64,000 bases of DNA from Thiobacillus denitrificans DSM 12475 (lineage in GTDB: Bacteria; Pseudomonadota; Gammaproteobacteria; Burkholderiales; Thiobacillaceae), in assembly GCF_000376425.1 (NCBI RefSeq), contig NZ_AQWL01000004.1, forward strand, positions 328,251-392,250, written 5' to 3'. Shown one piece after another: positions 4,776-22,509 of the stretch. The position numbers and the translations under genes are program-made. A model generated the notes under the pieces. That model did not search any database and was not told the origin of the DNA. It saw nothing but the letters and a program-made list of their open reading frames with translations. Positions within the stretch are counted from its first letter, which is position 1, and each line of letters opens with the position of its first letter.

Positions 4776-4971
4776 TTACTGCGGCAGCATGCCGGCCCTC
4801 GCCACGAAATACTTGCGGGCCGCGGGCAAGCCTATGGTCTGGATTCGTTCGATCAACAACTTACGCCCTGCAAAGGTCGTTCTGGCATTCTTATGGCTGT
4901 TCATCCGGTTGGCTTCCTTGGGTGGCTGAAGCGTCGAGAACTCTAGTCTCCCAGGACCTTCCGGGTGGACA
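4776..4971 (-). mobile_element. IS481-family remnant (5' end of transposase gene)
   Basis: A leftward frame starting at the ATG at 4904 encodes MNSHKNARTTFAG followed by RKLLIERIQTIG, which I recognise as the N-terminus of IS481-family transposases. It then changes to an unrelated tail and stops at 4776 after 42 residues. The segment 4833-4930 matches the reverse complement of about 20013-20105 along its whole length with scattered substitutions and small gaps, and that second copy continues into recognisable transposase sequence. A TGT-starting sequence at 4971 reading leftward may be the left terminal repeat of the element, but this is tentative. It abuts the 3' end of the PepSY gene, and together with the second copy it brackets the siderophore island in inverted orientation. 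Confidence 0.7.
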
Positions 4972-6163
4972 ACCTATTGAAACGACACCTAGGCTGGTGC
5001 AGTAACGACGGGCATTGTGGCCGGCTTGTCTCCCCGGGTGCTAACGGATTGAACGGACCGGCGGCGCATCGAACGGCCGGACGTGCGGGCTTGCGCCTGC
5101 TGCGGTTTGCCCACATCGCCACGCCTGTCACGAGCAGCACGAGCGGTGCGAGGCCTACGACGACTTGCAGGACGCGGGTCGGAGTGCCGGCGATTGCCCC
5201 GACGTGCAGCGGATAAAAGGTATTGAAGACGCGTGTGCCGCGCAGCGCCAAAAGATCGCGTTCGACCTGCAGCACCGTGCCGGAACGGGGGTCGAGATAG
5301 ACGAAGTTGCGTCCGTTCGGGTGCGCCTCGTTCGGGCGTTTCTTGCGCACGACAAGCGGTGCGGTCGGAGTTTGCGGCAGGCTGATCCAGGTGGTGGGTA
5401 ACGGCAGCGCGCGGTCGGCCGCGTGCAGCAGCGCGTCAATCGTCCGTACGGACGCGTCCGATCGGGCGGGTCCGATGCGCGGCGCAGGCGGGCGCGGTGC
5501 GCTCACCGTCACCGCGTCGACGAGATCGATCGCGGTTTCATTGAACACGAAGGCGGCGCCGGTTGCGGCCGTAACCGAGAGAAACAGCACCGCGTAGACC
5601 CCGGTCGCTCGGTGGAGGTCGAAATTCAGCCTTTTCCAACGCGCGGACCACTGGACTTTGAAGCCTTGCGAAAGCTTTCCGTTTCGCGGCCACCAGACGA
5701 CGAGCCCTGACACGCACAGGCCGAGCAGCAGCAGGCCGCCGAACCCGACTGCGGTTTCGCCGCGCTCGCCGGCCAGCAGTTCGGTGTGCAGCAGCGCGAG
5801 CCATCCGAGCACGGACTCGCGCTGGCGATGCGTGCCGAGGATGCTGCCGCTGTAGGGATCGATATAGACGAAGCGGTCGTGGGCGTTGTTGAGCTTGACG
5901 AGGTAGGTCTCGCGCGGCGAGCGCGGCATGCGGATCGCGAACAGCCGCTCTGCTGGATATGCGCGCTGCACCGTTTGCACCACGTCTTCCACCGCGACGC
6001 GCTCACCCGATCCCGATGAGACGAGCAACTGCGGGTGGGTGAGTGCTTCGAGCTCTTCGCGGTACACGAGCACGCTGCCGGTGAGTCCCGTCACCACCAG
6101 CAGCAGTCCGACGAAGAGGCCGGTATAGAGGTGGAACTTGACGAGCAGACGGCGCGCCGTCAC
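4943..6163 (-). CDS. PepSY-associated TM helix protein (iron-regulated membrane protein family)
   Basis: A 406-residue inner-membrane protein of the PepSY_TM family. Members often sit beside TonB-dependent siderophore receptors and are thought to help reduce or release siderophore iron. Membrane segments are clear at about 12-33, 145-165, 193-215 and 345-367. PepSY-like periplasmic segments lie between them, with FVYIDPYSGSILG and its second copy NFVYLDPRSGTVLQV. His11, His131, His189 and His327 lie at or near the membrane segments and are heme or metal ligand candidates. The start is a GTG with a GGAGG ribosome binding site. The tail after about residue 370 is not family-like: it is Pro/Arg-rich and reads into the adjacent IS481 remnant, so the original 3' end may be lost. 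It is the last gene of the island, 115 bases after the receptor. Confidence 0.82.
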   Translation of the reverse strand: MTARRLLVKFHLYTGLFVGLLLVVTGLTGSVLVYREELEALTHPQLLVSSGSGERVAVEDVVQTVQRAYPAERLFAIRMPRSPRETYLVKLNNAHDRFVYIDPYSGSILGTHRQRESVLGWLALLHTELLAGERGETAVGFGGLLLLGLCVSGLVVWWPRNGKLSQGFKVQWSARWKRLNFDLHRATGVYAVLFLSVTAATGAAFVFNETAIDLVDAVTVSAPRPPAPRIGPARSDASVRTIDALLHAADRALPLPTTWISLPQTPTAPLVVRKKRPNEAHPNGRNFVYLDPRSGTVLQVERDLLALRGTRVFNTFYPLHVGAIAGTPTRVLQVVVGLAPLVLLVTGVAMWANRSRRKPARPAVRCAAGPFNPLAPGETSRPQCPSLLHQPRCRFNRLSTRKVLGD

Positions 6164-6278: not shown

Positions 6279-8375
6279 TCAGAGCTCGACCTTCGCCGTC
6301 AGCTTCAGCGTGCGTGGCGCGCCGACTCCGAGCAGACCGTTACCGGCCGTGCTCCAGTAATTTTCATTCGTCACATTGTCGATCACGGCCTGGAAGGTCG
6401 TGCGTTTGCCGCTCAATTTCGTGGTGTGGCGGGCGCCGAGCGAAAGCGTGGTGTAGCCGTCGACGAAGGCCCGGTTTTCGTTGTCCACCGGACGCTTGCC
6501 GACGTAATACAAGCCGCCGCTCAGCGCGAGCCCTGGCACACTGGGCAGCCGGTATTCTGCAAAGAGGCTCGCCGTGCGCTCGGGGGTGTTGTCGGGCACC
6601 TTGCCGAAGGTCGCCGGATTGGCCGCGTTCTGCTGCTCGGCGTCGAGAAAGAGGGCGGATGCGACAAGCGCCAGGTTGCGCGTGACTTCGCCGCTGGCCG
6701 CGAGTTCGACGCCGCGGTACTGGGCGAGGCCGTTGAGGACGAAGCGGTTGGACGCGTCGACCGTCGTCGAGGGCCGTTCGATGTCGAAATACGCGGCCTG
6801 CAGCAGGATGCCCTGGGCGATCTCGGCCTTGACGCCGATTTCCTTTTGCTTCGACAGCGCGGGCGGCAGCAGCTCGCCGGCATTGGCGCGGTTTGCCGGG
6901 GCCTGCCCGCTTTCCTCGAGCCCCTCGAGATAGCTGCCATAGACCGAAACCCCGGCTACCGGCTTGTACATGATCGCGACGGACGGATTGACGTCGTCCG
7001 CTTCGTAGCGCGTGCTCGTCGTTTCGCTTTCGTAACGGCTGGCCCGCGCGCCGAGCATGAGCTGCCACTTTTCGCCGAAGGCCATGCGATCGAACAGATA
7101 CCAGCCGCGATCCTCGATCGTGGACGGATTGTGGCTGGGAGCCGAGGGAGCGGTCTGCTCCGGCACCTCGGTCGGATCGTAGAGATTCTGTGCGACGCTG
7201 ACGCTTCCGCCCGACCGTGAATTCTGGTCGCGCTGGTTCGCGGTGTAGCCGAACGACAGATCGTGGCTGACCCACACGCCAGGGATGTGACCGAAGATTT
7301 CGGTGCGGTAGTTGCTGTTCTCGTATGCCTGGTTCGGGCTGAAGAAGATTTTAAGCGTGCCGTCGCCGGTCGCGAGGTTGTAGTTCTCGAATTGCGAGAA
7401 GCGGCGGTCGCGGTTGGTCTGCGCGTGGCCGGCTTCGAGCAGGAGCCCCCAGTCGTCGCTCAGCACATAGTCGGTGCGGAACAGCACATTGGTCGCGTCG
7501 GCATCGTAGGTCTGCCACTCGCCGCCGAGATTGGTGCGGGCGTCCGGAATGGATGGGAGCGTGATCGTCCCGTCCGAGTTGGGAGCCAGGACCTTGATAG
7601 CCGCCTGCTCGGATACGTCCTTGCGATAGTGCTCGACGTCGAGCTTGAACGACAGCGCATCGCTGGCCTGCCAGTCGAACGCGACCGCGCCGAGCGCGCG
7701 CTCGCCGGAATAATTGTCGACGCCGATATCCTCGCGGCCGGCGAGCAGGTTGACCCGCGCGCCGAACTGCTGGTCGTCGCCGAAGCGGCGTCCGACGTCG
7801 GCGTGCACGTTGGCGCCGCCGTAGTGGTTGGCTGACAGCGCGAGACTCGACACCGGGTCCTTGCCCGCGCGCTTGGTGACGAGGTTGACGATGCCCGACG
7901 GCGGCACAAAACCGTAATAGAGTGACGAGGCGCCCTTGAGCACTTCGACGCGCTCCTTGTTTTCGAGCGGCACATCGATCAGGTTGATGATCGGCAAGGA
8001 ACCGTTGAGCCGGTAGTTGCCGCGGTTCTCGACCAGGATGCCACGGATCGCGATGTTGTCGTAGGTCGAGCCGTTGAGTTGCGAGCGGGTGACGCCGGCG
8101 GTGTTGCGCAAGGCGCCGAACAGCGTCGAAACCGCTTGCGCGTCAAGCACTTCGCGCGTGACGACGTTACTGGTTTGCGGCACGTCGAGCGGCGAGGCTT
8201 CGCGGAAGGTGCCGACCTGGACCGTATCGGATTTGAAGCTGCCCGCGTATTCCGACCAGACGGTAACCGTGTCGAGTTCCCCGCGCGGGTTTTCCCGGGG
8301 AGGCTGGGCGTTGGCCGGCGACGCCGAGAACGCGATCGAAAGTGCGCCTGCCAGCGCGGAGAGGTGGAATTTCAT
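6279..8375 (-). CDS. TonB-dependent siderophore receptor (PvuA-like position)
   Basis: A 698-residue outer-membrane receptor. It has a signal peptide (MKFHLSALAGALSIAFSASPANA) and a TonB-box-like stretch (DTVTV) near residue 35. A plug domain follows, with the signatures YDNIAIRGI and RVEVLKGASSLYYGFVPPSG, and then a 22-strand beta-barrel up to the C-terminal LKLTAKVEL. The plug matches the TonB-siderophore receptor subfamily for ferric siderophores. The start at 8375 is chosen because the signal peptide begins there. Two upstream Met are in frame. A Fur-box-like site lies about 150 bases upstream, so this gene probably has its own iron-repressed promoter besides read-through from the biosynthetic operon. 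In Vibrio the vibrioferrin receptor gene likewise sits beside the pvs genes. Confidence 0.93.
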   Translation of the reverse strand: MKFHLSALAGALSIAFSASPANAQPPRENPRGELDTVTVWSEYAGSFKSDTVQVGTFREASPLDVPQTSNVVTREVLDAQAVSTLFGALRNTAGVTRSQLNGSTYDNIAIRGILVENRGNYRLNGSLPIINLIDVPLENKERVEVLKGASSLYYGFVPPSGIVNLVTKRAGKDPVSSLALSANHYGGANVHADVGRRFGDDQQFGARVNLLAGREDIGVDNYSGERALGAVAFDWQASDALSFKLDVEHYRKDVSEQAAIKVLAPNSDGTITLPSIPDARTNLGGEWQTYDADATNVLFRTDYVLSDDWGLLLEAGHAQTNRDRRFSQFENYNLATGDGTLKIFFSPNQAYENSNYRTEIFGHIPGVWVSHDLSFGYTANQRDQNSRSGGSVSVAQNLYDPTEVPEQTAPSAPSHNPSTIEDRGWYLFDRMAFGEKWQLMLGARASRYESETTSTRYEADDVNPSVAIMYKPVAGVSVYGSYLEGLEESGQAPANRANAGELLPPALSKQKEIGVKAEIAQGILLQAAYFDIERPSTTVDASNRFVLNGLAQYRGVELAASGEVTRNLALVASALFLDAEQQNAANPATFGKVPDNTPERTASLFAEYRLPSVPGLALSGGLYYVGKRPVDNENRAFVDGYTTLSLGARHTTKLSGKRTTFQAVIDNVTNENYWSTAGNGLLGVGAPRTLKLTAKVEL

Positions 8376-8523
8376 GGATCTGACCTTTTTTCGTTGCATG
8401 AATGGAAGTCGCCGCAAAGCAAAGTGCTGGCTGGGATCCATCCCCGCGGAGGGAGCGGTCAGTGGCTGGCAGGGCGCCTCGATACCCGGGCGTTCATGAT
8501 CGGGAAACCAAAACTATGCGAAT

Positions 8524-8542
8524 AATAATGGTTCCTATTATC
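8524..8542 (-). promoter_or_regulatory. Candidate Fur box upstream of the second receptor
   Basis: Reading leftward, GATAATAGGAACCATTATT agrees with the 19-bp Fur consensus GATAATGATAATCATTATC at 14 positions. It sits in an AT-rich island between the aldolase stop codon and the receptor start. Confidence 0.6.
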
Positions 8543-8604: not shown

Positions 8605-9366
8605 TCATTTGAATGTCGCGAGATGGGCCTTGATCGCCCGGAAGCTCACGCCACGGTCGTCGCCCAGCAAATACGCCTGCACGCCGCGCGCTTTCCAGCT
8701 GGCGGCCTGTTCGGCGATGCGCGGAATGGCGCAAAAAGGAATGCCGCGAGCCGCGCATCCCGCCGCGATTCTTTCGATCGCCTCCTGCACGATCGGATGT
8801 TGGGCCTGCCCTGACACGCCATAGGACTGCGACAGGTCGATCGCGCCTTCGAGCACCATGTCGATGCCAGTGACGGACAGAATGGCGTCGAGATTGTCGA
8901 CGCCTGCGCAGTCTTCGATCATGGCCACCACCATGATTTCCGAGTTGGCGCGCGCGAGATAAGTCGCCAGGTCGATAGTGCCGAAGCCGGTGGTGCGGCC
9001 GCCGCTGATGCCGCGCATGCCGAGCGGCGCGTAGCGGCTCGCCGCAACGGCCTGTGCGGCATCAGCGGCGGTGCGTACGTGCGGCACGACCACGCCCTGC
9101 GCGCCGCAGTCGAGCGCCCGCAGAATGACGTCGGGCGCGGCGCTCGGCACACGCACCAGCGGCGTCACACCCGCGCATTCGGCGGCCCGCACCATGTTTT
9201 CGAGTGTCTCGGGATTGACGCAGACGTGTTCCATGTCGAGGATGACGAAATCGAATCCGGCGTAGCCGATCATTTCGACGAGCAGCGGCGACGGAATCGA
9301 ATTGAGCAGGCCGAATACGGTCTTCCCTTCGGCGAGCGCGCGTTTGAGGTGATTGGTCTGCAGCAT
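8605..9366 (-). CDS. HpcH/HpaI-type aldolase, candidate SbnG-like citrate synthase
   Basis: A 253-residue class II aldolase-fold protein of the HpcH/HpaI family. The barrel carries the family's metal and oxo-acid contacts: DMEH (about 44-47), the ED pair in MIED (about 149-152) and GAIDLSQSYGVSGQ (about 174-187). SbnG of Staphylococcus belongs to this family and makes citrate from oxaloacetate and acetyl-CoA for staphyloferrin B. The gene starts six bases after the pvsE-like decarboxylase and is the last gene of the biosynthetic operon, so a dedicated citrate supply for the siderophore is the natural reading. This is inference, and an aldolase on another 2-oxo acid remains possible. The C-terminal LLGDDRGVSF segment differs from HpaI. 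An AAGG ribosome binding site precedes the ATG. Confidence 0.8.
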   Translation of the reverse strand: MLQTNHLKRALAEGKTVFGLLNSIPSPLLVEMIGYAGFDFVILDMEHVCVNPETLENMVRAAECAGVTPLVRVPSAAPDVILRALDCGAQGVVVPHVRTAADAAQAVAASRYAPLGMRGISGGRTTGFGTIDLATYLARANSEIMVVAMIEDCAGVDNLDAILSVTGIDMVLEGAIDLSQSYGVSGQAQHPIVQEAIERIAAGCAARGIPFCAIPRIAEQAASWKARGVQAYLLGDDRGVSFRAIKAHLATFK

Positions 9367-9372
9367 GCGGCC

Positions 9373-10581
9373 TTAGTCCACGGGCAGGTACCACTGCGCC
9401 GGATGTGGGTGGCGCAGGAAGTCGTGATGCGAAATGTGCCAGGCGTAGGCGCCGGCGTAGGGGAAGACCAGCACGTCGTTGCAGCGCACCGATTCGACCG
9501 GGACGTCGAAGGCCAGCAGGTCTTTCGGCGTGCAGAGCTGGCCGACGACGCTGACGCTTTGATTCGATGCGTGCGGGCGCGCGAACGTATATGGCCATTG
9601 GTCGACCGGTAGCACGTGGAAGGGGTGGCTGTGGCCTTGCGCGTAGGGCGTGCGAAAGTGATGCGATCCGCCGCGGCCGACCACAAAGGTCTTGCCGTGG
9701 CTGTGCTTGATGTCGATCACCTGCATCGCATAGTAACCGCAGGCCGCGGTCAGGTATCGGCCGAGTTCGAAGCGCACGCGGACGCCGGGCATGCCACGTT
9801 CGCTCAGCAGCGCGGCCAGCCCGGCGCTGAAAACCGGCCAGTCGAATTGCCGATCGGGCTGGCGGTAATTGACGCCGATGCCGCCGCCGACGTTGACGTG
9901 GTCGATGGCGAGATCATGCGCCTCGCACCAGAGGCGGGTCTGGGCCAGATAGGCCGAGACGAGCTGCAGATGGGCGGCGGCGTCGAGCTGGTGCGACAGC
10001 AGATGGAAATGAAAGCCGCGCAGGCGGATCTCGGGACGGGCGCGCAACCATTCCAGGCATTCAGGCAATTGCTGCGCGGGAATGCCGAACGGCGTCGGCT
10101 TGCCGCCCATCATCAGGCTTGTCTCGGCGAGCCCGTCGAGCGTCAGGTTGATACGCAGGGACACCGGCACCGTTCGCCCGGCGCGGACGGCGATGTCCGC
10201 CAGTCGCTGCAGCTCGTGCAGGCTTTCCGCATGCAGACAATCGATGTCCTGTTCGATCGCTTCCCGGAGTTCATGGTCGAGCTTGCCCGGGCCGCTGAAA
10301 ATCACCGGCACCTCGGCGAAGTGTTCGCGCACCCAGGCGAGTTCGCCGCCCGACGAGACCTCGAATCCGGCGACCTGCGATGCGAGCGTCTGCAGGATCG
10401 GCAGTTCGGAATTGGCCTTGATCGCGTAATACAGTTCACAACCTTCAGGCAGGCTGCGGACCAGATTCGCCGCGTGCAGCCGCAGCGCAGCGAGGTCGTA
10501 GACATACGCGCACAGCGGCGCACCAGCCTCCTCCTCGGCCGCGCGCAGGCTCGTGAACACCTCGGCCAGTCTCAGTTCCAC
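9373..10581 (-). CDS. pvsE: PLP-dependent decarboxylase, PvsE/SbnH-like
   Basis: A 402-residue fold-type III PLP enzyme of the diaminopimelate/ornithine decarboxylase family. YYAIKANS near residue 51 holds the PLP lysine. HFHLLSHQLD lies mid-protein, GGGIGVNY (about 228-235) binds the phosphate, and ELGRYLTAACGYY follows. In vibrioferrin synthesis PvsE is proposed to decarboxylate the citryl-serine intermediate to citryl-ethanolamine. SbnH does the equivalent step in staphyloferrin B. The start is a GTG overlapping the end of the preceding NIS synthetase gene by 10 bases, which indicates translational coupling. The operon position, fifth after A-B-C-D, matches pvsE. Confidence 0.85.
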   Translation of the reverse strand: MELRLAEVFTSLRAAEEEAGAPLCAYVYDLAALRLHAANLVRSLPEGCELYYAIKANSELPILQTLASQVAGFEVSSGGELAWVREHFAEVPVIFSGPGKLDHELREAIEQDIDCLHAESLHELQRLADIAVRAGRTVPVSLRINLTLDGLAETSLMMGGKPTPFGIPAQQLPECLEWLRARPEIRLRGFHFHLLSHQLDAAAHLQLVSAYLAQTRLWCEAHDLAIDHVNVGGGIGVNYRQPDRQFDWPVFSAGLAALLSERGMPGVRVRFELGRYLTAACGYYAMQVIDIKHSHGKTFVVGRGGSHHFRTPYAQGHSHPFHVLPVDQWPYTFARPHASNQSVSVVGQLCTPKDLLAFDVPVESVRCNDVLVFPYAGAYAWHISHHDFLRHPHPAQWYLPVD

Positions 10582-12404
10582 GCGCGGCTCTCCACCAGCG
10601 TGCCAAGCGGGTTGTTAACCGGAAGGTAGCCGGAAGCGCGATCCGGCCGCTTGAAGAAGCGGTTGATCAGGTTGGCCTTGCCGGGAAATGGCTCCCCGGC
10701 CAGCAGCGCATTGATGCAGCGTGCCGAGGCGTCGTCCCCATACTGGTTCTGATAAGCGTGCAGATGGTGGCGCACGACCGCCCACAGGCGATTCTGCAAT
10801 ACCGGGCTGCCCGCGCCGATCTGGTTGATCGCCTCGCAGAAATTGTTGACGAATAGACAATAGGCGATGCGCTTCCAGCCCTGCTCGGCGCTGTACCAGA
10901 GCGCTTCACGGGCGCGCGGGCTGATACCGTCCAGTTGCTTGGCGCCGAAGCGTTCCTGCACCAGCTTCACGCCTTCGAAGTCACGCAGGAAGACCTGCCG
11001 CACTTCGCCTTCGGCCACGCCGATCATGACGTTCTGCAGATGCGGCTCGAAAATGACGCCGTGCGCGAAATAGCAGTACAGCACCGGGTACATGAGTTCG
11101 CCGACGTAGCGCGAAAACCACGCCTCGGCGGCCTCTTCGCGCGACGGTCGCGACATCGCGTCCAGCAACTCCCCCATCCGAGCTTCGCCGTAGACGTGGT
11201 TGCCGAACAGCGCGCCCGCGAGCAACGGCGTCACGCCCGGATGCAACACGTCACCGAAACCGCGTCGCAGGATCAGGCCGAAGCCTTCGGTGATCGCCTT
11301 GTCGGATTGGGCGTCGCCCGTTTTCAGATCGGCCGAAACAAACGCGGGCTCCTCCATGATCGCGACGCCGGGGAAATGCTGCCGCAACTGCGGCGCGAGG
11401 GTGCGCATGATGCGGGTGACCTGCAGCGCGCCTTCGAGCTCGTAGATCGCGTTCTTGCGCACGCAGTTGGTGATGCGGACGTTGAGCGAACACTTGTAGA
11501 AATAGGGATTGTCGGGATGGAACAGCGTGCGTATCGACGAGGTCGGATAAAACAATGCGCCCCGTTGTCCAAGATCGCGGATGCGGCCACTGCCGATCGC
11601 TGCGGCGACGTCCGGATGGCCGAGCAGATGGCGTGCCTGCCAGGGATGGGCAGGCAGCAGGAAAAAATCCCCATCCACGGCAATGTCCGCCGGCGCCTGT
11701 TCGGCGACCAACCGGTCGCAGGGCTGGGCGAGCACCGATTGCTGCAGCAGGAATTCGCGGCGTACCGCGAAATAATGCAGCGCAAAACGCGTCCCCATCT
11801 CCGGTGAATAGCGTTGCATGTCATCCTGGGAAATGCCCTGGCGGCTTTTCGGGGCGGGATGGAACGGGTGGCCGAACACCAGCGACTGTTCAGACTCGAC
11901 GAAGGCCTGCAAGGGGCGCGGCGAAAACGGCCCGGGGCACGCTGCGCCCAGCACGGCGGCGGTGACCGCCACGCTGTCCTCGATCTGCTGCATCAGTTCG
12001 TCGTTCGCCGGTTGGCCGCATTTGAGCGACAGCTCACGCAACAGCAGCCCCGCCAGCGCCTGCCAGTCGAGCAGAGCCCACGGTTTACCCGGCGCCTTGC
12101 AATACATCGGCGAAAGGTAGCGGTAGTTCCCGGTGGCGCATGCGCTGTCGACCACGGTCAACACGCGCTCGCCGGTGAGCGGCAGACGAAGGTGCATAGC
12201 GCGGCCGCCGGTGCTCCGCAGCGCAAGGTGCACCGATGCGGGGCTGTCGCTCTGCCCGAACAGTGGGCCCACGCTCAGCTGTCCCTCGGGCCCCGCGACC
12301 TCGCGGCAATAACAGTTGAGCAGCGTTTCCATGGAACGCCGGCCGGCTTCCTGTCGCGTCAGGGATAGCGGGGCGATCGCGCCCGCCAGATGATGTGAAT
12401 GCAT
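10572..12404 (-). CDS. pvsD: IucA/IucC-family NIS siderophore synthetase, PvsD-like
   Basis: A 610-residue NRPS-independent siderophore synthetase, which adenylates a carboxylate and condenses it with an amine or alcohol. Family motifs are present: GHPFHPAPKSRQG (178-190) for ATP, LLPAHPWQ, SIRTLFHP with a following ITNCVRKN, and FEPHLQNVMIG with LRDFEG near the C-terminus. PvsD is the citrate-plus-serine ligase in the proposed vibrioferrin route. By position and IucA-like motifs this is the counterpart, but substrate choice cannot be read from sequence. The ATG at 12404 has a GGAG ribosome binding site and starts 13 bases after the exporter gene. Its 3' end overlaps the decarboxylase gene. 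Confidence 0.88.
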   Translation of the reverse strand: MHSHHLAGAIAPLSLTRQEAGRRSMETLLNCYCREVAGPEGQLSVGPLFGQSDSPASVHLALRSTGGRAMHLRLPLTGERVLTVVDSACATGNYRYLSPMYCKAPGKPWALLDWQALAGLLLRELSLKCGQPANDELMQQIEDSVAVTAAVLGAACPGPFSPRPLQAFVESEQSLVFGHPFHPAPKSRQGISQDDMQRYSPEMGTRFALHYFAVRREFLLQQSVLAQPCDRLVAEQAPADIAVDGDFFLLPAHPWQARHLLGHPDVAAAIGSGRIRDLGQRGALFYPTSSIRTLFHPDNPYFYKCSLNVRITNCVRKNAIYELEGALQVTRIMRTLAPQLRQHFPGVAIMEEPAFVSADLKTGDAQSDKAITEGFGLILRRGFGDVLHPGVTPLLAGALFGNHVYGEARMGELLDAMSRPSREEAAEAWFSRYVGELMYPVLYCYFAHGVIFEPHLQNVMIGVAEGEVRQVFLRDFEGVKLVQERFGAKQLDGISPRAREALWYSAEQGWKRIAYCLFVNNFCEAINQIGAGSPVLQNRLWAVVRHHLHAYQNQYGDDASARCINALLAGEPFPGKANLINRFFKRPDRASGYLPVNNPLGTLVESRAWN

Positions 12405-12417
12405 GCTTTCTCCAGGG

Positions 12418-13593
12418 TCAGGGATTTCGTAGGGCCAAACGATGAAAGGCAACACCGGCGAGATAAGCGCCCGCAGCGAACAAGGTGAACGCCCCGATGA
12501 AAAACGGCGCTCGCAGATCAAGTGCCTGGACGGCCGCGCCGGCGATCAGGCCGGCCCCGACGGCGCCCCACTTGGCGTTGCTCTCGAACCAGCCAAAGGT
12601 ACGGCCGGCGTTCTCGCGCGTCACGATCGCCGCGATCAGCATGTGCAGGCTCACGAAGCCGAGCGTCATGCCGAGGCCCATCGCGATGCGTGCGGCAGTC
12701 AGTCCGGCGAGCGTCGGAAGCAGCGCCTGCGCCGCCAGCGCGCCCGCAAGCACAAGGAAGGACAGCGACAACGTGGCGAGTAGACGCCCCTGTCCGAGAT
12801 GGCGGCCCAACGGCACCGCACACAGCAGATAGACCAGATGCGGGATGCCGAACAACAGCCCGGCCACGACCAGCGACGGCGGCGCGGAACCCGCCTGGGC
12901 GAATGGAATGAAATAGGGAAACGTCAGCACGGTGGCGAATACGAACGCGAACTGCATGGCGTAGATCAGGCTCGCGCGCGCTTCGGGCACGCCGCTCCGG
13001 GCGCGGGTCGCAGGTTGGGCACCTGCGTCCTGCGGGTGTCCCGACGGCAGCCGCGCGATCAACAGCGCGGCAACGAGCGGCAGCAGCGCCAGGTAACGGT
13101 AGAGCACGAGCGGCGACTCGACCGTCATCAGCAAGCCCAGTCCGGCTGGCGCGGCAACCAGCGCCGCGCGCGCCGACCACTGCATCAAATTCAGACTGCG
13201 CGAGAGCGCGGCGCCGCTGACCACCGTCGCCAGATAGGCGTTGGATGCGGCGAAGGTGCCGCCCAGCAGGCCTTGCAGCGCGAGGGCCAGGGCGAATACT
13301 GCGACATTGGGTGCGAAGCCGGCCAGCAGGAAACTGGCCGCGAGGCCCAGTTGCGCGCGCATCAGCAGCAGTTTCTTGCCATAGCGGTCGGCGAGCCGCC
13401 CCCACCAAGGGCTGCTCACGGCGGTGAAGAAGATCGGCACGATGTAGAGCCAGCCGGCCAGGTAGGAGGCGTCGCTGTGCAGCGAGTCCTCGAGGATCAG
13501 CGCGAAGAAAGGCGGCATCCCGAGCGCCGCGAACGCGGCGACGAAATGGCAAACCATGATCGTGGCGACGGCGCGCCGCGTGTCGAGGCTCAT
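12418..13593 (-). CDS. pvsC: MFS transporter, siderophore exporter PvsC-like
   Basis: A 391-residue major facilitator with 12 predicted membrane helices. The characteristic loop 2-3 motif is present as WWGRLADRYGKKLLL. A long cytoplasmic loop in the middle (PSGHPQDAGAQPATRARSG) separates the two six-helix halves. PvsC exports vibrioferrin in Vibrio parahaemolyticus, and SbnD and AlcS are similar exporters encoded inside NIS operons. The start codon overlaps the TGA of the preceding synthetase gene (ATGA), a standard coupled junction. Inner-membrane export of the finished siderophore is the expected job. Confidence 0.87.
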   Translation of the reverse strand: MSLDTRRAVATIMVCHFVAAFAALGMPPFFALILEDSLHSDASYLAGWLYIVPIFFTAVSSPWWGRLADRYGKKLLLMRAQLGLAASFLLAGFAPNVAVFALALALQGLLGGTFAASNAYLATVVSGAALSRSLNLMQWSARAALVAAPAGLGLLMTVESPLVLYRYLALLPLVAALLIARLPSGHPQDAGAQPATRARSGVPEARASLIYAMQFAFVFATVLTFPYFIPFAQAGSAPPSLVVAGLLFGIPHLVYLLCAVPLGRHLGQGRLLATLSLSFLVLAGALAAQALLPTLAGLTAARIAMGLGMTLGFVSLHMLIAAIVTRENAGRTFGWFESNAKWGAVGAGLIAGAAVQALDLRAPFFIGAFTLFAAGAYLAGVAFHRLALRNP

Positions 13594-15440
13594 GCCAGCC
13601 TCAGGAAGTTGGGCGCGCTGCGGCCGTAGAACTTGTTGACGTCGGCCGCCCCGGTTTCGCTTTTCTCGGCGAGGGTCGCGGCGATCAGCAGATATTTGAT
13701 ATAGAGCCGGTCGTCGTCGAGCAGCACACGGCGCGCCGGCGCCACGTCTTCGCCTGTGGCCGCCAGCTCGTCGAGCATGGCGGCGATGCACTCGCGCACC
13801 CGGTCGTGCAGCGCAGCGGCCGGCACGCCGAGCCGATCCGCGTAGACCTCGGCGAGCACCGCGATGTTGAGCTGCAGCGTGATCGTCGTGAACATCTGCG
13901 CGAGCGGCAGCGCGTCGGCGACGAAGATGCGGCGATCGCGCAGATCGGCGACGCGGCCTGCGAGATCCGGCCAGCGCCGCGCCAGCGCGTCGAAATGGAT
14001 GCGCCCCGCGTCGTTGTCCTTCAGCAGCAGGCGCAAGCGCGGCGCCTGTCGGCTCAGGACGAGGACCGAGTTCTGCTGGTTCGATTCGAGCGCAACGCCG
14101 TAGCGCAGCCACAGCGTGAGGTGCAGCCTGAGCGTCAGGTCAAGGTAGTCGTCGAAAAAGGCCGCGAGGTCGCCTGCATAGAATTCGGCCGCGATTTCTT
14201 CGGCCACGGTGGCGCCGCCGGGCGCCGCGGCGAGCAGGCTCGCGACCGGGACCAGTGTGCTTTCGCCGAGCGCAGCGACCGGGTAGCGGCGCAGGATGTG
14301 GCCGAGGAAGGTGCGGTGGTCGACATGCGCGCCGCAGCCCTCGAAGGTCAGCAGCACGCGCCCGGAAAGCGCAGGCTCGCGCGCGGCGATGTCGGCGAGC
14401 AGCGTCTGGAAGCGATGGCCGTCGTGGATCGTGCTCGGCTTGATCGTGCGGATGTTCTTGGCGCCGAGGGTGCGGATCGTCAGCGGCAGCTTCAGATGCC
14501 ATTCCGGCGCGTCGAGCAGCACGACCGTGCGCACAGACAGCGTCGGCGCCACCGCGAGCCAGGGGTCCGGGGCACGCACGACACTTTGACACAATCCGGC
14601 GTCGTCGAGGAAGGCGTCGAGTTGATGCGCCCAGACGAAGGGATGCACCGGGAGCAGGACGTGGGTAGTGGCCATCGCCGCCGGCAGGCCGACGGCTTCG
14701 ACGGTCGGCCAGGGCGCCGGCGGGGCCACGCCGTCTTCGGCGCTCGGGTGATAGAGGTCGCGCGGCACCGCGAGCCAGCGCAGCATGAAAGGGCGCTGGA
14801 ACTCGGGACCGTAGGCGGCGAGCGCGGCGGCATCGAAGCCGAGTTTGGCGCGCGCGGTCGGATAGAACGGATGATCGAGGAAGGCGCCGAGCCGGTCGTA
14901 GTGCAGCAGCCGCGCGTGCCAGTTCGGTAGCCGGGCGCCCGGCGCGCTGCCGTAGGCCGCGCGGAACTCGGCGAACCAGCGTTCGCGCTCGGTTTCGCCG
15001 GCACGCCGATGTTCAGCCGCGACGCGGCATTCTTCGGCGAAGTCGGCGAAGCGCGCGGCCGCGGGCGCCGCGAGGCCCTGCGCGAAGCAGGCCAGGATGT
15101 CCTCGACCGTATGGAGCGATTGCAGTCGGCGGCCGTCGTCACATACGAGCGGCAGGGCGGTACTGCGCCAGGTCTGCATGAAGGTGGATGCGACGACCGG
15201 AATCCACAGCACGCTGCTGCCGAAATGGCCGATCTCGAGCCAGGCATCGGCGTCGCCGAACGCCGTGAGCGCGGGCGACACCGTGCCGCCCGCGCGTACC
15301 ATCGCGCGGCTCACACAGGCGCGTACGTCTTCGCGCAGCAGGGCGTCGACGACACGCTGGCAGATGTAACCCTCCGGCGCCGTGTCTCCCCCGCGGGACG
15401 GGTCGGCGGCGAGAGCGGTTTTCGGGGCGGGCGCGTTCAT
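13590..15440 (-). CDS. pvsB: IucA/IucC-family NIS siderophore synthetase, PvsB-like
   Basis: A 616-residue NIS synthetase, more divergent than the PvsD-like one. The ATP-binding motif appears as DHPFYPTARAKLG. Further family blocks are LLPVHPFVWAHQ, LSVRTVVLL with KLPLTIRTLG and the IRTIKPSTIHDG region, and ALESNQQNSVLV with LLKDNDAG near the C-terminus. In vibrioferrin assembly PvsB is proposed to join the citryl part to the alanine/2-ketoglutarate unit. The start at 15440 overlaps the TGA of the ATP-grasp gene (ATGA). An in-frame ATG at 15455 is an alternative. The 3' end overlaps the exporter gene in the same way. Confidence 0.87.
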   Translation of the reverse strand: MNAPAPKTALAADPSRGGDTAPEGYICQRVVDALLREDVRACVSRAMVRAGGTVSPALTAFGDADAWLEIGHFGSSVLWIPVVASTFMQTWRSTALPLVCDDGRRLQSLHTVEDILACFAQGLAAPAAARFADFAEECRVAAEHRRAGETERERWFAEFRAAYGSAPGARLPNWHARLLHYDRLGAFLDHPFYPTARAKLGFDAAALAAYGPEFQRPFMLRWLAVPRDLYHPSAEDGVAPPAPWPTVEAVGLPAAMATTHVLLPVHPFVWAHQLDAFLDDAGLCQSVVRAPDPWLAVAPTLSVRTVVLLDAPEWHLKLPLTIRTLGAKNIRTIKPSTIHDGHRFQTLLADIAAREPALSGRVLLTFEGCGAHVDHRTFLGHILRRYPVAALGESTLVPVASLLAAAPGGATVAEEIAAEFYAGDLAAFFDDYLDLTLRLHLTLWLRYGVALESNQQNSVLVLSRQAPRLRLLLKDNDAGRIHFDALARRWPDLAGRVADLRDRRIFVADALPLAQMFTTITLQLNIAVLAEVYADRLGVPAAALHDRVRECIAAMLDELAATGEDVAPARRVLLDDDRLYIKYLLIAATLAEKSETGAADVNKFYGRSAPNFLRLA

Positions 15441-16645
15441 GCCGCGATCGTCCATGCCAGTCCGCTGCTAATCCGGTCCATTTCCCGGCCCAGGCGCTGG
15501 AGGTCAGCGCCGGTACCACGCAACACCCCGAGGTAGTCCTTGTTGGAGTGGGTCAGGATGACCGTCTCACCGACCGCTCGCAGCGGTTTGAACGTGATCT
15601 GGGCGTCTTCCGAGTGACGATCGAATGCGTTGGGGGCGCCGGTCAAGCGGCCTGCGGACTGTGCCGTGAAATAGCGGATCAGTGCTGCGCCCGGTGCGAC
15701 GTCGATCTCAGGGAGCGGCTCGCCGGCGTAAAGATCGAGAATGATCTCGAATAAAGGCAGTCCGAGCGTGTCCTGCAGCAGGAACTCGCGGTAGTCTCCG
15801 ATGCTGCGATAGTTGATCTCGATCAGCCGGGGGCCGGAGCCAGTCATTACGAACTCTGTGTGGCACGCGCCAAATCCGATGCCGAAACGGCGGATGATTT
15901 CGACTACTTCAGTTTCCTGATCGAGCGTCAAGCCTGTCCCCCAGCTCGCTTCCAGTTCTACGAAATACGGCGGCGGCGACAGTTTTACCCGAAACCCCCC
16001 GAGTACGCAGAGCCCCTTGTCATCGCCGAGCGTTTCCAGCGTATAGAGCGGGCCTGCGATGTATTCCTCGAGCAGCAGGGGCTGGCCCGGCTGTTTGCTC
16101 CACGCCGCGGCGCATTGTGCGGCGAGCTCGGCGCGGTCGTGGGCGAGACTGACCTGCTGGCTGGCGACGCCTTCGCGCGGCTTGACGATGCAGGGAAATG
16201 GCACGCCGTCGACGACACGCGCGAGCCCTGCCGGGTCGCAGACCACGGCGTGCCAGAGCGTGTCGAGTCCGCGCGCCTTGAGCCTGGCCCGCATTTCCGC
16301 CTTATTCTTCGCGCAATAGGTGACGTGCCAGTCCTTGCGCGGCAGGCCGAAGTATTCGGCGGCGATCGCAGCGCTCGTCTGTAGATGATCGCTGTTGGAA
16401 AAAACTGCCGTCGGCGCCTCGGCCCGACAGGTGATCGCATCGATGACCGCGAGCGGATTGAATACGTCGCAGGCGACGATTTCGTGGGGATAGGCGGCAA
16501 GGCCGGGCCGGCTGAAATGCTGCCGATGCGCCTCGGCATGGTCGGTCAGCAGGACGACCGACAGGCCGCGTCGCTGCGCCGCCGGAATGAAACCGTCGTT
16601 GACCGAATCGGTCGGCACGTGGGCCAAAAGGATGATCTCTCGCAT
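15437..16645 (-). CDS. pvsA: ATP-grasp ligase, PvsA-like
   Basis: A 402-residue ATP-grasp carboxylate-amine ligase. The ATP-grasp core holds FPCIVKPREGVASQQV (phosphate/adenine lysine), LLLEEYIAGPLYTLE and, near residue 285, RLIEINYRSIGDY with the metal-binding Glu and Asn. PvsA is the only ATP-grasp enzyme of the vibrioferrin pathway and is thought to link L-alanine to 2-ketoglutarate. An ATP-grasp gene placed directly before an IucA/IucC gene is the feature that separates pvs-type operons from staphyloferrin B and aerobactin operons. The ATG at 16645 has an AAGGAG ribosome binding site at eight bases and lies 11 bases after the receptor gene. Confidence 0.87.
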   Translation of the reverse strand: MREIILLAHVPTDSVNDGFIPAAQRRGLSVVLLTDHAEAHRQHFSRPGLAAYPHEIVACDVFNPLAVIDAITCRAEAPTAVFSNSDHLQTSAAIAAEYFGLPRKDWHVTYCAKNKAEMRARLKARGLDTLWHAVVCDPAGLARVVDGVPFPCIVKPREGVASQQVSLAHDRAELAAQCAAAWSKQPGQPLLLEEYIAGPLYTLETLGDDKGLCVLGGFRVKLSPPPYFVELEASWGTGLTLDQETEVVEIIRRFGIGFGACHTEFVMTGSGPRLIEINYRSIGDYREFLLQDTLGLPLFEIILDLYAGEPLPEIDVAPGAALIRYFTAQSAGRLTGAPNAFDRHSEDAQITFKPLRAVGETVILTHSNKDYLGVLRGTGADLQRLGREMDRISSGLAWTIAA

Positions 16646-16656
16646 GACCGCTCTCC

Positions 16657-18726
16657 TTACATGTCCATTTGCAGAGTGAGCAAGGCGGCACGGCCGGGCG
16701 CCGGCATGCGGCCCTGGCTGAAGTCGACCCCTCGGAAGTAGTAGTCGCGATCGAACAGGTTGTTGAGCGCGAGCGCGGCCTTCATTTTCGTGCCGCTCCA
16801 ACGGAAGTCGCGCGTGACCTGCGCGTTCCATACCGAATAGGCCGGGATGCGTCCGACCGAGCCTGTCGCGTTCTCGGCGGCCGTGTTCGCACCGTCGGAG
16901 AAGGACGCGCTCTGGTAAAGGCCGTTCAGGTTCCAGTTCCAGCCTCCGCTGCGGTAGTTGCCCTGCAGGTTAAGCTGATGGTGCGGGGCGAGCGGCAGCT
17001 CGTTGCCCTCGAACTGGCCCGATCGCTGCTCGGTGTCGACGTAGGTGTAGGCGGTCTTGAATTCGAGTCCGCGTACCGCTGCCGGCCGCCACGCGACTTC
17101 GGCCTCGACGCCTTGATGGCGCGCTTCGCCGAGGTTACGGAAGCCCACGGCCTGGCTCACGAATTCGAGCTTGTTGTCGAAGTCGAAGCGGAAGGCCGTG
17201 AGGCTCGTATCGACGTTCGCAGTGGGCGCGACGCGGATGCCGGCTTCGTAGTTTTTCGCGCGCTCGGCATCAAGATCGCCGCCGAAAGTGATTTGCGTGA
17301 ACTGCACGGGCCGCAAGGACTTGTGGTAATTCGCGAACAGGAAGACCGCATCGCTCGCCTGGTAGCCGACGTCGATGCCGGGCAGCCAGTCCTTGGTCGT
17401 GTCACGGGTCTCCGCGCCGGTCAGGTTGTTGCGGTAATAAAGGTCGACCTTTTCATGGCGGATGCCGGGGGTGACCTTGAGCTTGTCGTCGAGCAGGGAG
17501 AAGGTGTCACTCAGATACGCGGCGACGGCGTCGTTCTCGAAGCGCCAGTCGCGCGTCACAGCGTAGGCGTTGGTTGCCAGTGTGCGCGAGTCGACGACAT
17601 AGTCGACTTCTTCGCGCATGTAGCGTGCGCCGAGCGAGATTTTTTGCTTGATGCCCGCGTCGATATCGAAGGTGAGCCGCGGCTCACTGCCGTATACCCA
17701 GAACTCGCGCGGCGACGACATCTCGTTGGTCGACGGGGTGTCGGCGTTGGTCGAATTGCCGAAGAAGAATTGCCGGTTGCTGCGGTGGGCGAAATTGGCC
17801 CAGCTCAATTCCGCGCCGTTGGAGAAATACTGGCTGTAGGTGACGTGTCCGCGCAGCGTGTCGCCGTCGAAGCGGTCGAGCGGGCGAGTCGACTGGTCGC
17901 GGTCCTGTTCGTACGACGCCGGCGTCAACGCTCCGGGCAGATCGTTCTCGGTCTTGTAGTACTGCAGGCCGGCGCGGATGTCGGCGCTGTCGGTCAGGAA
18001 CCAGTCAGCGTCGAGCATCAAGTTCTGGACCGACGTGCTCGAGTGCTCCCGCTCGGCCTCGCCTTCGATGAGATTGGCCTGGGCCTGCAGGCCCAGGCGC
18101 TCGCCGACGAAGCCGCCTGCGCGCAGGTAGGTGTCACTGAGCAGATTACCGCTGCTCGCGATCGACAGCGTCTCTTTCGCCGTGAACGCGGGCTTGCGCG
18201 GAATGCGCTTGGTCACGAAATTGATCACGCCGCCGACATTGTTCGGACCGTAGTGGACCGCGACGCCGCCGCGTGCGACGTCGATCGCCTCGACCGAATT
18301 GAGCGTCAGAGGAAAGAGCGACAGGCCGGTCTGGCCGTAAGGCGCCAGCGTAATCGGCATGCCGTCGACGAGGACCAGCACCTGTTCGCTGCGCAGAGGA
18401 TTTAGGCCGCGAACACTGATGTTCGGCAGGATGCCGGTGCCGCTTTCATCCAGCACCCGCACGCCGGGCACGTTGCGCAGCGCATCTTCCACGGTGCGCG
18501 CCCCGGTTTCGGTCAATTCCTGGGATGTGACCACGCTGCGGGCGCCGGGGTGTTTTTTTGCCGCTTCGGGCGTCGGCGCGCCTAGCCAGTCGACGCTGAC
18601 CCTCACCTCCTCAAGGGTGTTGGCGGATTCTTTTGGCGCGGGCGCGGACACAGTCTGGGCGTGTGCCTGCGAGACCGAAAAAACGAGCGAGATGGCGCTG
18701 GCCAGCGCGGATAATTGGAATTGCAT
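16657..18726 (-). CDS. TonB-dependent receptor (PsuA/FecA-like), head of the siderophore operon
   Basis: A 689-residue outer-membrane receptor. It has a signal peptide (MQFQLSALASAISLVFSVSQAHA) and a TonB box around EEVRVSV (39-45). The plug carries NISVRGLNPLRSEQVLVLVDG and VEAIDVARGGVAVHYGPNNVGG, the pattern of FecA-type receptors for citrate-like siderophores. A 22-strand barrel follows. In Vibrio parahaemolyticus psuA is the gene immediately before pvsA and encodes the second vibrioferrin receptor, and the same order holds here. It is separated by 11 bases from the ATP-grasp gene. The signal peptide is very similar to that of the other receptor in this island (both begin with a xFxLSALAxAxS pattern), suggesting a shared origin. 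Confidence 0.93.
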   Translation of the reverse strand: MQFQLSALASAISLVFSVSQAHAQTVSAPAPKESANTLEEVRVSVDWLGAPTPEAAKKHPGARSVVTSQELTETGARTVEDALRNVPGVRVLDESGTGILPNISVRGLNPLRSEQVLVLVDGMPITLAPYGQTGLSLFPLTLNSVEAIDVARGGVAVHYGPNNVGGVINFVTKRIPRKPAFTAKETLSIASSGNLLSDTYLRAGGFVGERLGLQAQANLIEGEAEREHSSTSVQNLMLDADWFLTDSADIRAGLQYYKTENDLPGALTPASYEQDRDQSTRPLDRFDGDTLRGHVTYSQYFSNGAELSWANFAHRSNRQFFFGNSTNADTPSTNEMSSPREFWVYGSEPRLTFDIDAGIKQKISLGARYMREEVDYVVDSRTLATNAYAVTRDWRFENDAVAAYLSDTFSLLDDKLKVTPGIRHEKVDLYYRNNLTGAETRDTTKDWLPGIDVGYQASDAVFLFANYHKSLRPVQFTQITFGGDLDAERAKNYEAGIRVAPTANVDTSLTAFRFDFDNKLEFVSQAVGFRNLGEARHQGVEAEVAWRPAAVRGLEFKTAYTYVDTEQRSGQFEGNELPLAPHHQLNLQGNYRSGGWNWNLNGLYQSASFSDGANTAAENATGSVGRIPAYSVWNAQVTRDFRWSGTKMKAALALNNLFDRDYYFRGVDFSQGRMPAPGRAALLTLQMDM

Positions 18727-18892
18727 GTTGACGTCTTTCAGGGTTGGGGAAATCGTATTTGGATGCGCGGCAGGTGCCGCATGCTGCGGGGGTGGCGCGG
18801 TGGGCCCATGCGACGGATATGCCGGGCGCGGCCGTGCCGACGTAGCGCTGACGCGCGTTGCCGGTTTGCTGTCCGAAATGGATAGTGGGGCG

Positions 18893-19123
18893 TGCCGAAT
18901 CGACGCTGGCGCCGAGCAGCACCGCGCCGGAGATATCGAATTCGTGTCCTAGATCCGAGTAGGCACGGATTTCAGTCGGGCAGATGAAGGTGAAATCAAG
19001 CGGCCAGAAAAACAGTACCAGCCATTTGCCGCGATAGTGGGCGAGCGAAACCGTTTCGATGCGGCCGTCGGACAGACAGGCCTCACAGCTGACGTCCGGG
19101 ACGGCATGTCCAATCGATATCAT
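18893..19123 (-). pseudogene. Peroxiredoxin (AhpC/TSA) remnant, 3' truncated
   Basis: From the ATG at 19123, which has an AAGGTGG ribosome binding site, about 77 codons encode the first half of a 2-Cys peroxiredoxin. The active-site block FFWPLDFTFICPTEI with the peroxidatic Cys and the following DISGAVLLGASVDS are both present. After SVDS the similarity ends abruptly. The frame stays open to 18611, overlapping the receptor gene, but encodes Pro/Arg-rich sequence unlike any peroxiredoxin. The resolving-Cys half is absent in all frames. A shortened functional protein is unlikely. Confidence 0.75.
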
Positions 19124-19134
19124 ATGAACCACCT

Positions 19135-19640: not shown

Positions 19641-19669
19641 AGGTGCAGGTCCTATATCTAATACGGTAA

Positions 19670-19684
19670 TAATAATGATTCTCA
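19670..19684 (-). promoter_or_regulatory. Candidate Fur box upstream of hemP and the siderophore operon
   Basis: TAATAATGATTCTCA matches the 7-1-7 Fur consensus TGATAATNATTATCA at 12 of 14 specified positions. It is 30 bases upstream of the hemP start, in an AT-rich patch, and is the only obvious control site for the leftward hemP-receptor-pvsABCDE transcript. Confidence 0.7.
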
Positions 19685-19706
19685 ATAATAAATCAAGTGC
19701 GGGCGC

Positions 19707-20012: not shown

Positions 20013-20473
20013 GGCCATCCAAGGAGCCCAATCGGGTGAATAGCCATAAGAATGTCAGAACGATCTTTGCAGGCGTAATTGCTGATCGAACGAATCCAGA
20101 CCATAGGGACCCGTCGTGTGCTCGCGGCCATCGGACGGTCCAGCCTGAAAGCGCTGGAACCCAAGGTGCCGGTGGTGCGTCACGAACGGTCCGCACCGGG
20201 CGAAATACTGCACCTGGATACCAAGAGGCTCGGCCGCATCGAGCACAGCTTCACTCGGCTCTACCGCCCGCAAACCAACGGCAAGGCCGAGCGTTTCATT
20301 CAGGCATGCTTGCGCGAGTGGGCCTACGCCAGAAGCTATGCTCACAGCGCTGGACGCGCTTCCTGGTTGCCGGCCTTCATCGCTGACTACAACAGCCAGC
20401 GCCCTCGCTCGGCGCTCGGTTACAAACCTCCAGCCTCACGCCTCGGCGGGAACAACCTATTGCAACTCAACGG

Positions 20474-20477
<4 letters not shown>
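20013..20477 (+). mobile_element. IS481-family transposase remnant with frameshift and two internal deletions
   Basis: From the GTG at 20036 the sequence encodes MNSHKNVRTIFAG, then a two-base loss shifts the frame. The second frame continues with LLIERIQTIG, jumps to RRVLAAIGRSSLKALEPK and HERSAPGEILHLDTKRLGRI, jumps again to LYRPQTNGKAERF, and ends with RPRSALGYKPPASRLGGNNLL. All blocks are IS481-family transposase blocks in the correct order. The helix-turn-helix stretch after TIG and the central DDE segment after LGRI, including the second catalytic Asp, are missing. The frame's TAG overlaps the TAG of acs, so the right end of the element is lost. It is inactive. Confidence 0.85.
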
Positions 20478-22441
<1,964 letters not shown>

Positions 22442-22509
22442 AGGGTCCCTCCACTGATAGAGTGTTTGATAACAGCCAGATTCTAATTCAAAGCGCCCTG
22501 ATCCAAGCC

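Follow-up and report, generated by a model that had tools for sequence, protein, structure and literature searches.

A vibrioferrin-type siderophore operon in Thiobacillus denitrificans that carries its own predicted citrate synthase

The 64,000-nucleotide stretch of Thiobacillus denitrificans DSM 12475 analyzed here (contig NZ_AQWL01000004.1, positions 328,251 to 392,250; hereafter the window) encodes, at positions 8605-18726 on the minus strand, seven consecutive genes that run from a TonB-dependent receptor to a protein of the HpcH/HpaI aldolase family. We read these genes as an iron-regulated vibrioferrin-type operon carrying its own predicted citrate synthase, and we assign this reading a probability of roughly 0.82. 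It draws on the content and order of the genes, on the membership of the terminal protein in a clade with SbnG, on conserved residues, on Fur-like boxes and on the co-inheritance of the terminal gene with the biosynthetic genes.

Every one of the seven reading frames is open at full length. Their order is psuA-pvsABCDE with one gene, that of the HpcH/HpaI protein, added at the 3' end (Table 1). The receptor scores 404 bits against the FecA model NF041676, under its cut-off of 1100, and pvsA from the window is 38-67% identical to six pvsA homologues. The six junctions, counted from the receptor onward, measure +11, -19, -4, +13, -10 and +6 bp; the last gene starts 6 bp past pvsE, inside a nonribosomal peptide synthetase-independent siderophore (NIS) cluster, and no tailoring gene was seen between the seven genes. 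This arrangement is not a product of chance. A Pfam search of the host genome (3.6 Mb, 38 contigs) turned up no IucA/IucC gene beyond the two of the operon and no HpcH/HpaI gene beyond its terminal one, so that the genome holds two IucA/IucC synthetases rather than the three that characterize staphyloferrin B and achromobactin systems. An earlier reading, made from the letters alone (the sequence-only reading), had proposed a vibrioferrin-type operon in psuA-pvsABCDE order with overlapping junctions. The ordered pvsA-E homologues on one strand and the linked TonB receptor bear out the operon and confirm the order, whose pvsABCDE part was compared with two Vibrio loci (L046 and L047) rather than with the V. 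parahaemolyticus locus itself and is matched in both. Overlaps are present at three of the six junctions, while the other three are short gaps.

The terminal protein has 253 residues and its top matches in the Protein Data Bank (PDB) are 4tv5 (237 bits) and 4tv6 (236 bits), ungapped across all 253 residues, followed by GarL at 144 bits. When a profile built from 37 relatives was used instead, SbnG reached 309 bits and the next entry 169 bits. The entry 4tv5 is listed as SbnG, an enzyme that makes citrate from oxaloacetate and acetyl-CoA, in Table 1 and the text of PMC7139808. An AlphaFold2 model of the terminal protein has a pLDDT of 94.4.

Alternatively, the gene might be a chance neighbor of the operon, encoding a pyruvate-type aldolase (GarL/HpaI/RhmA-like) that acts in the breakdown of sugar acids or aromatic compounds, and the NCBIfam models nearest to the protein are indeed GarL and HpaI. 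However, these models and that of rhamnonate aldolase score it at 124-162 bits, far short of their curated cut-offs (369-441), and in a 108-row tree the protein stands apart from all 30 rows of other HpcH/HpaI proteins. The 78 siderophore-linked rows of this tree (the window protein, SbnG and 76 rows taken from loci) are split from the 30 others with a support of 100/100, and the split is recovered in 200/200 bootstrap trees. The 30 comprise three PDB proteins and 27 proteins from evenly drawn genomes of the class; the latter were taken from the best 30 of 56 matches, and genes of the window were looked for in the 1.5 kb around them. L098 (a 90-residue frame only) and L055 (32 residues) are omitted from the tree, and one row, L054, ranks as siderophore-linked solely through an adjoining receptor piece. 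On the curated cut-offs and the tree we reject a catabolic aldolase, which we hold to be highly improbable.

The same split is visible in single residues. E173, C212, P215, R216 and R238 occur in 76-77 of the 78 clade rows and in 0-1 of the 30 others, and M149 in 77 of 78 as against two of 30. Positions 149, 173, 175, 212, 215, 216 and 238 divide the two sides almost perfectly, and the window protein carries the SbnG-side letter throughout. H47, R72, E151 and D177 do not vary on either side of the tree and are therefore superfamily-wide; the window protein has these as well. Single residues among these presumably have catalytic roles. The claim that the terminal aldolase belongs to the SbnG clade thus stands on the PDB match, the tree split and the clade-marking residues. 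Grouping outside that clade, which the sequence-only reading had named as fatal to its proposal, was tested for and not seen. The tree also draws SbnG as nested among the pvs-linked enzymes, a topology that we do not uphold. In approximately unbiased (AU) tests a single clade of all pvs-linked rows is rejected (p 2e-47) with the Rhodococcus row L051 inside the group, and it is not rejected (p 0.347) with L051 left free; because the rejection vanishes in this way, the nesting is not supported.

The extra gene is common near pvsA. We scanned genome contigs by pvsA alignment and took the best 80 of 569 relatives as named loci, a sample that leans towards the window's kin, and we scored a gene as present if tblastn matched it somewhere in the stretch fetched, not anywhere in the genome. 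An SbnG-clade gene lies within 10 kb of pvsA in 68 of the 80 loci (L098 with its short frame included), after pvsE in 39 and before pvsA in 29. Examples come from Thiobacillus, Nitrotoga, Cupriavidus, methanotrophs, Azotobacter, Pseudomonas fragi and Xanthomonas. Among the remaining 12 loci, five are truncated at a contig end (L060, L070, L083, L103 and L110). Distances between clade genes correlate with those between pvsA, pvsD and pvsE genes at r 0.91, 0.95 and 0.92 (70 loci, L106 and L107 left out), the best of 500 shuffles being 0.16; pvsA and pvsE, compared in the same manner, give a similar r of 0.95. The clade gene is co-inherited with pvsA, pvsD and pvsE, and a single change on its tree suffices to account for its placement before or after the cluster. 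Both the linkage and the co-inheritance argue against a catabolic gene that merely adjoins the operon.

Evenly drawn samples of 369 genomes of the class (PvsD query) and 398 of the phylum (PvsA query) contained ten genomes with pvs clusters, after exclusion of PvsD matches of 24-29% identity in G049, G188, G272 and G293, which had no further pvs match in their 1.5 kb flanks. The clade gene is within the cluster in five of the ten (the window genome, G172, G026, G677 and G732); counted by genus, five have it and two do not. One of the genomes without it in the cluster, G602, has a weaker clade match (E 7e-41) about 0.6 Mb away. Plasmid records matched in 45 cases, of which eight were fetched (one via a pvsD hit) and seven placed in the tree. 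The record of Rhodococcus sp. WAY2 contains pvsA-E and the clade gene, and that of Pantoea soli has the clade gene in front. The gene is also found in achromobactin-like clusters and in one staphyloferrin-B-like cluster. The sequence-only reading had interpreted the locus as a hybrid of two siderophore strategies; the 68 of 80 loci, the five of ten evenly drawn genomes and the presence in these other cluster types all speak against this, and we reject an unusual hybrid. The extra gene seems to be a module that carboxylate siderophore clusters have in common and that is missing from the Vibrio loci examined.

Two further layouts were seen in the course of this survey. In the sphingomonad loci L102 and L104, pvsA is detached from the other pvs-like genes and faces the other way, with no SbnG-clade match in the stretch. 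On a Pseudomonas mandelii plasmid (L054, 10001-11626) an SbnG-clade gene and a partial receptor lie near Tn3-family genes, and there is no pvsA-E match across that 20.8 kb stretch.

Iron regulation is suggested by Fur-like boxes, which we scored against the 19-position Xanthomonas Fur consensus. Only two places in the 64 kb window score at least 14/19 (Table 1). Shuffled windows have a mean of 0.5 such places and a maximum of three, and scores of at least 15 never arose in 60 shuffles; therefore the box at 19668-19686 is solid and the one at 8521-8539, taken alone, is not. Across the clade, 29 of the 31 rows with the gene before pvsA (29 named loci, L053 and L054) have a box of at least 14/19 no more than 300 bp ahead of the clade gene, compared with two of 155 random stretches. 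The box of Xanthomonas arboricola L133 is letter-identical to the one printed for X. campestris XCC3049 (PMC1790865). That gene is annotated there as mphE, a 4-hydroxy-2-oxovalerate aldolase, a label that would favor a catabolic role for its relatives; its sharing a box with a clade gene speaks against such a role.

In the Thiobacillus relatives L061 and L062 (the latter from T. denitrificans RG), 17/19 boxes lie upstream of the corresponding gene string, in the layout box, short frame, peroxiredoxin, another short frame, receptor. The window differs from them: its positions 18748-18888 (~140 bp) correspond to ~680 bp in both relatives, leaving ~540 bp missing, and its peroxiredoxin (AhpC/TSA) frame (18611-19132) matches only the first ~80 family residues and is longer in L061 and L062. 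Because of the missing sequence and the shortened frame, we infer the mode of transcription of the window operon. These two features could also indicate that in this genome the operon has fallen silent or is in decay, as could the distribution within the genus, where a clade-profile match at E 1e-60 or better is found in five of 25 genomes, some of them incomplete. That distribution makes the gene accessory within the genus. We nevertheless regard decay as unlikely, since the seven frames are intact and the Fur-like box is retained upstream, and an assembly error may explain the shortened spot.

The locus can be compared with several known systems. The Vibrio clusters of V. fortis (L046) and Vibrio sp. 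THAF190c (L047) have the same pvsA-E order at 35-46% identity; their receptors, however, are on the opposite strand, and their fetched stretches contain no SbnG-clade gene. The seven-gene order is the same in T. denitrificans RG and on plasmid pHG1 of Cupriavidus necator H16 (L045), where the clade gene is 68% identical to that of the window and the receptor only 29%. The closest relatives with a name belong to Thiobacillus: identity at the terminal gene reaches 90% with Thiobacillus sp. UBA12164 and 85% with strain RG. The Xanthomonas xss/xsu (xanthoferrin) type, represented by X. arboricola and X. euroxanthea (L133-L136), combines pvs-type genes with a nearby clade gene, which differs in coming first, before the receptor and behind a Fur-like box, and in having R rather than H at position 96. 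Xanthomonas has been reported to make a vibrioferrin-type siderophore (PMC5130282), and PMC9164167 cites the compound for both Azotobacter vinelandii and Pseudomonas fragi; the clade gene is present in the locus of P. fragi and also in those of two Azotobacter species other than A. vinelandii (L121, L108 and L113). SbnG of Staphylococcus aureus aligns with the window protein without gaps over 253 residues and shares its clade-marking residues, whereas the sbn cluster relies on different synthetases and includes diaminopropionate genes of its own (PMC7139808). Achromobactin clusters likewise hold an HpcH/HpaI gene, acsB, within a NIS cluster (PMC3329529; Sodalis L049 and Thalassospira L050), and differ in having three IucA/IucC genes and an ABC importer; L049 and L050 have no pvsA match. 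The excerpt of PMC8907978 lists acsB as an aldolase and the vibrioferrin cluster of Psychrobacter as pvsA-E only. One tentative scenario, which we find possible but would not bet on, is that vibrioferrin-type clusters have from early on had an iron-regulated citrate synthase among their standard components, that the model Vibrio clusters lost it or never acquired it, and that SbnG and AcsB are branches of this siderophore-bound enzyme family, which would come in two position-tied forms (mostly H96/Q180 and R96/L180).

In the vibrioferrin pathway serine is joined to citrate, decarboxylation yields the ethanolamine unit, and alanine and 2-oxoglutarate are added. From this scheme, the biochemistry of SbnG (PMC7139808) and the gene content we infer the reactions, their order, the product, its regulation and its transport. 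Low iron would lift Fur repression, and the SbnG-clade enzyme would condense oxaloacetate and acetyl-CoA to citrate. PvsD and PvsE would then convert citrate and serine to a citryl-ethanolamine unit, to which PvsA may add alanine and PvsB 2-oxoglutarate. PvsC would export the vibrioferrin-type product, the TonB receptor or receptors would take the ferric complex back, and a PepSY-TM protein perhaps frees the iron. Work on SbnG makes it fair to suppose, as the sequence-only reading did, that citrate supply would in this way be freed from the tricarboxylic acid (TCA) cycle. The enzyme could instead make another acid, a citrate analogue built from a different acyl-CoA or 2-oxo acid, and the product would then be a relative of vibrioferrin. 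Specificity may vary within the clade, whose two sides carry mostly unlike residues at positions 96, 180 and 214; yet the window letters at 96 and 180 (H and Q) equal those of SbnG, and the seven genes include no additional tailoring gene, and we consider another acid quite improbable.

Several observations weigh against an iron-regulated operon with a dedicated citrate synthase. The host genome has one ordinary citrate synthase gene, on a separate contig, and a 2-oxoglutarate dehydrogenase gene; the presence of both weakens an incomplete TCA cycle as the reason for the extra gene. We looked for a Fur-like box immediately upstream of the window receptor and found none (best 10/19), the nearest being ~0.94 kb away, beyond the shortened peroxiredoxin frame. 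No clade gene is present in seven of the 80 loci that are uncut within the cluster (L071, L090, L102, L104, L119, L125 and L131), in the clusters of G103, G220 and G320 (one genus) and G423 and G602 (another), or in the fetched stretches of Vibrio fortis, Vibrio sp. THAF190c and Piscirickettsia salmonis; owing to these absences the gene is not needed for vibrioferrin as such. Finally, SbnG forms a long branch (1.07) on the tree, which makes its exact place within the clade unsure.

Beyond the clade gene lie a second receptor and, as the second gene, one encoding a PepSY-TM protein (Table 1). DNA homologous to both follows the operon in L062, and DNA homologous to the PepSY-TM gene is downstream of the operon in L061, L062, L064 and L111; on account of these four relatives we guess that the protein releases iron in the periplasm by reduction. 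In Vibrio the ferric complex is imported by the ABC importer pvuBCDE, which is not a biosynthesis feature. No FecCD permease lies beside the operon, the only one found in the genome being on contig C1 (other importer types were not searched for). On the upstream side of the locus, open frames that by eye resemble a transposase/integrase end (20079-20477) and an acetyl-CoA synthetase (20474-22576) were noticed.

Table 1. Features of the siderophore locus and its flanks in the window
Feature	Position	Strand	Evidence
TonB-dependent siderophore receptor (psuA/FecA-like)	16657..18726	-	TIGR01783 299 bits, cut-off 223.5
pvsA, ATP-grasp ligase, predicted alanine-adding step	15437..16645	-	PF13535 32.7 bits (cut-off 27)
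pvsB, NIS synthetase (IucA/IucC)	13590..15455	-	PF04183 125 bits, PF06276 61 bits
pvsC, MFS exporter	12418..13593	-	PF07690; syntenic
pvsD, NIS synthetase (IucA/IucC)	10572..12404	-	PF04183 215 bits, PF06276 135 bits
pvsE, PLP-dependent decarboxylase (Orn/DAP-type)	9373..10581	-	PF02784/PF00278
SbnG-clade HpcH/HpaI protein, predicted dedicated citrate synthase	8605..9366	-	PF03328 107 bits
Fur-like box, probable iron-regulated promoter of the unit (inferred)	19668..19686	-	16/19
Fur-like box, weak alone, ~80 bp upstream of second receptor	8521..8539	-	14/19
Second TonB-dependent siderophore receptor, probably a linked iron-uptake gene	6279..8441	-	TIGR01783 320 bits, over cut-off
PepSY-TM membrane protein, possible periplasmic iron reductase (guess)	4943..6163	-	PF03929 220 bits

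Part of this pattern is probably known already. The abstract of the SbnG structure paper reportedly describes a clade of SbnG and homologues from other siderophore clusters. The extra gene is established in staphyloferrin B (SbnG) and achromobactin (acsB, PMC3329529) clusters, and pvs clusters in several genera. We found no paper linking vibrioferrin to SbnG in a partial set of literature, mostly titles and the beginnings of abstracts, and the frequent occurrence of an SbnG-type enzyme in vibrioferrin-type clusters outside Vibrio seems to have been little noticed. Vibrioferrin is usually described by five Vibrio genes. Should a dedicated citrate synthase be present in many other clusters, Cupriavidus, Azotobacter, Xanthomonas and methanotrophs may produce vibrioferrin independently of the TCA cycle, in the way that has been reported for staphyloferrin B, and annotations such as 4-hydroxy-2-oxovalerate aldolase would need correcting. 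These clusters would also offer a ready test of why siderophore clusters retain their own source of citrate.

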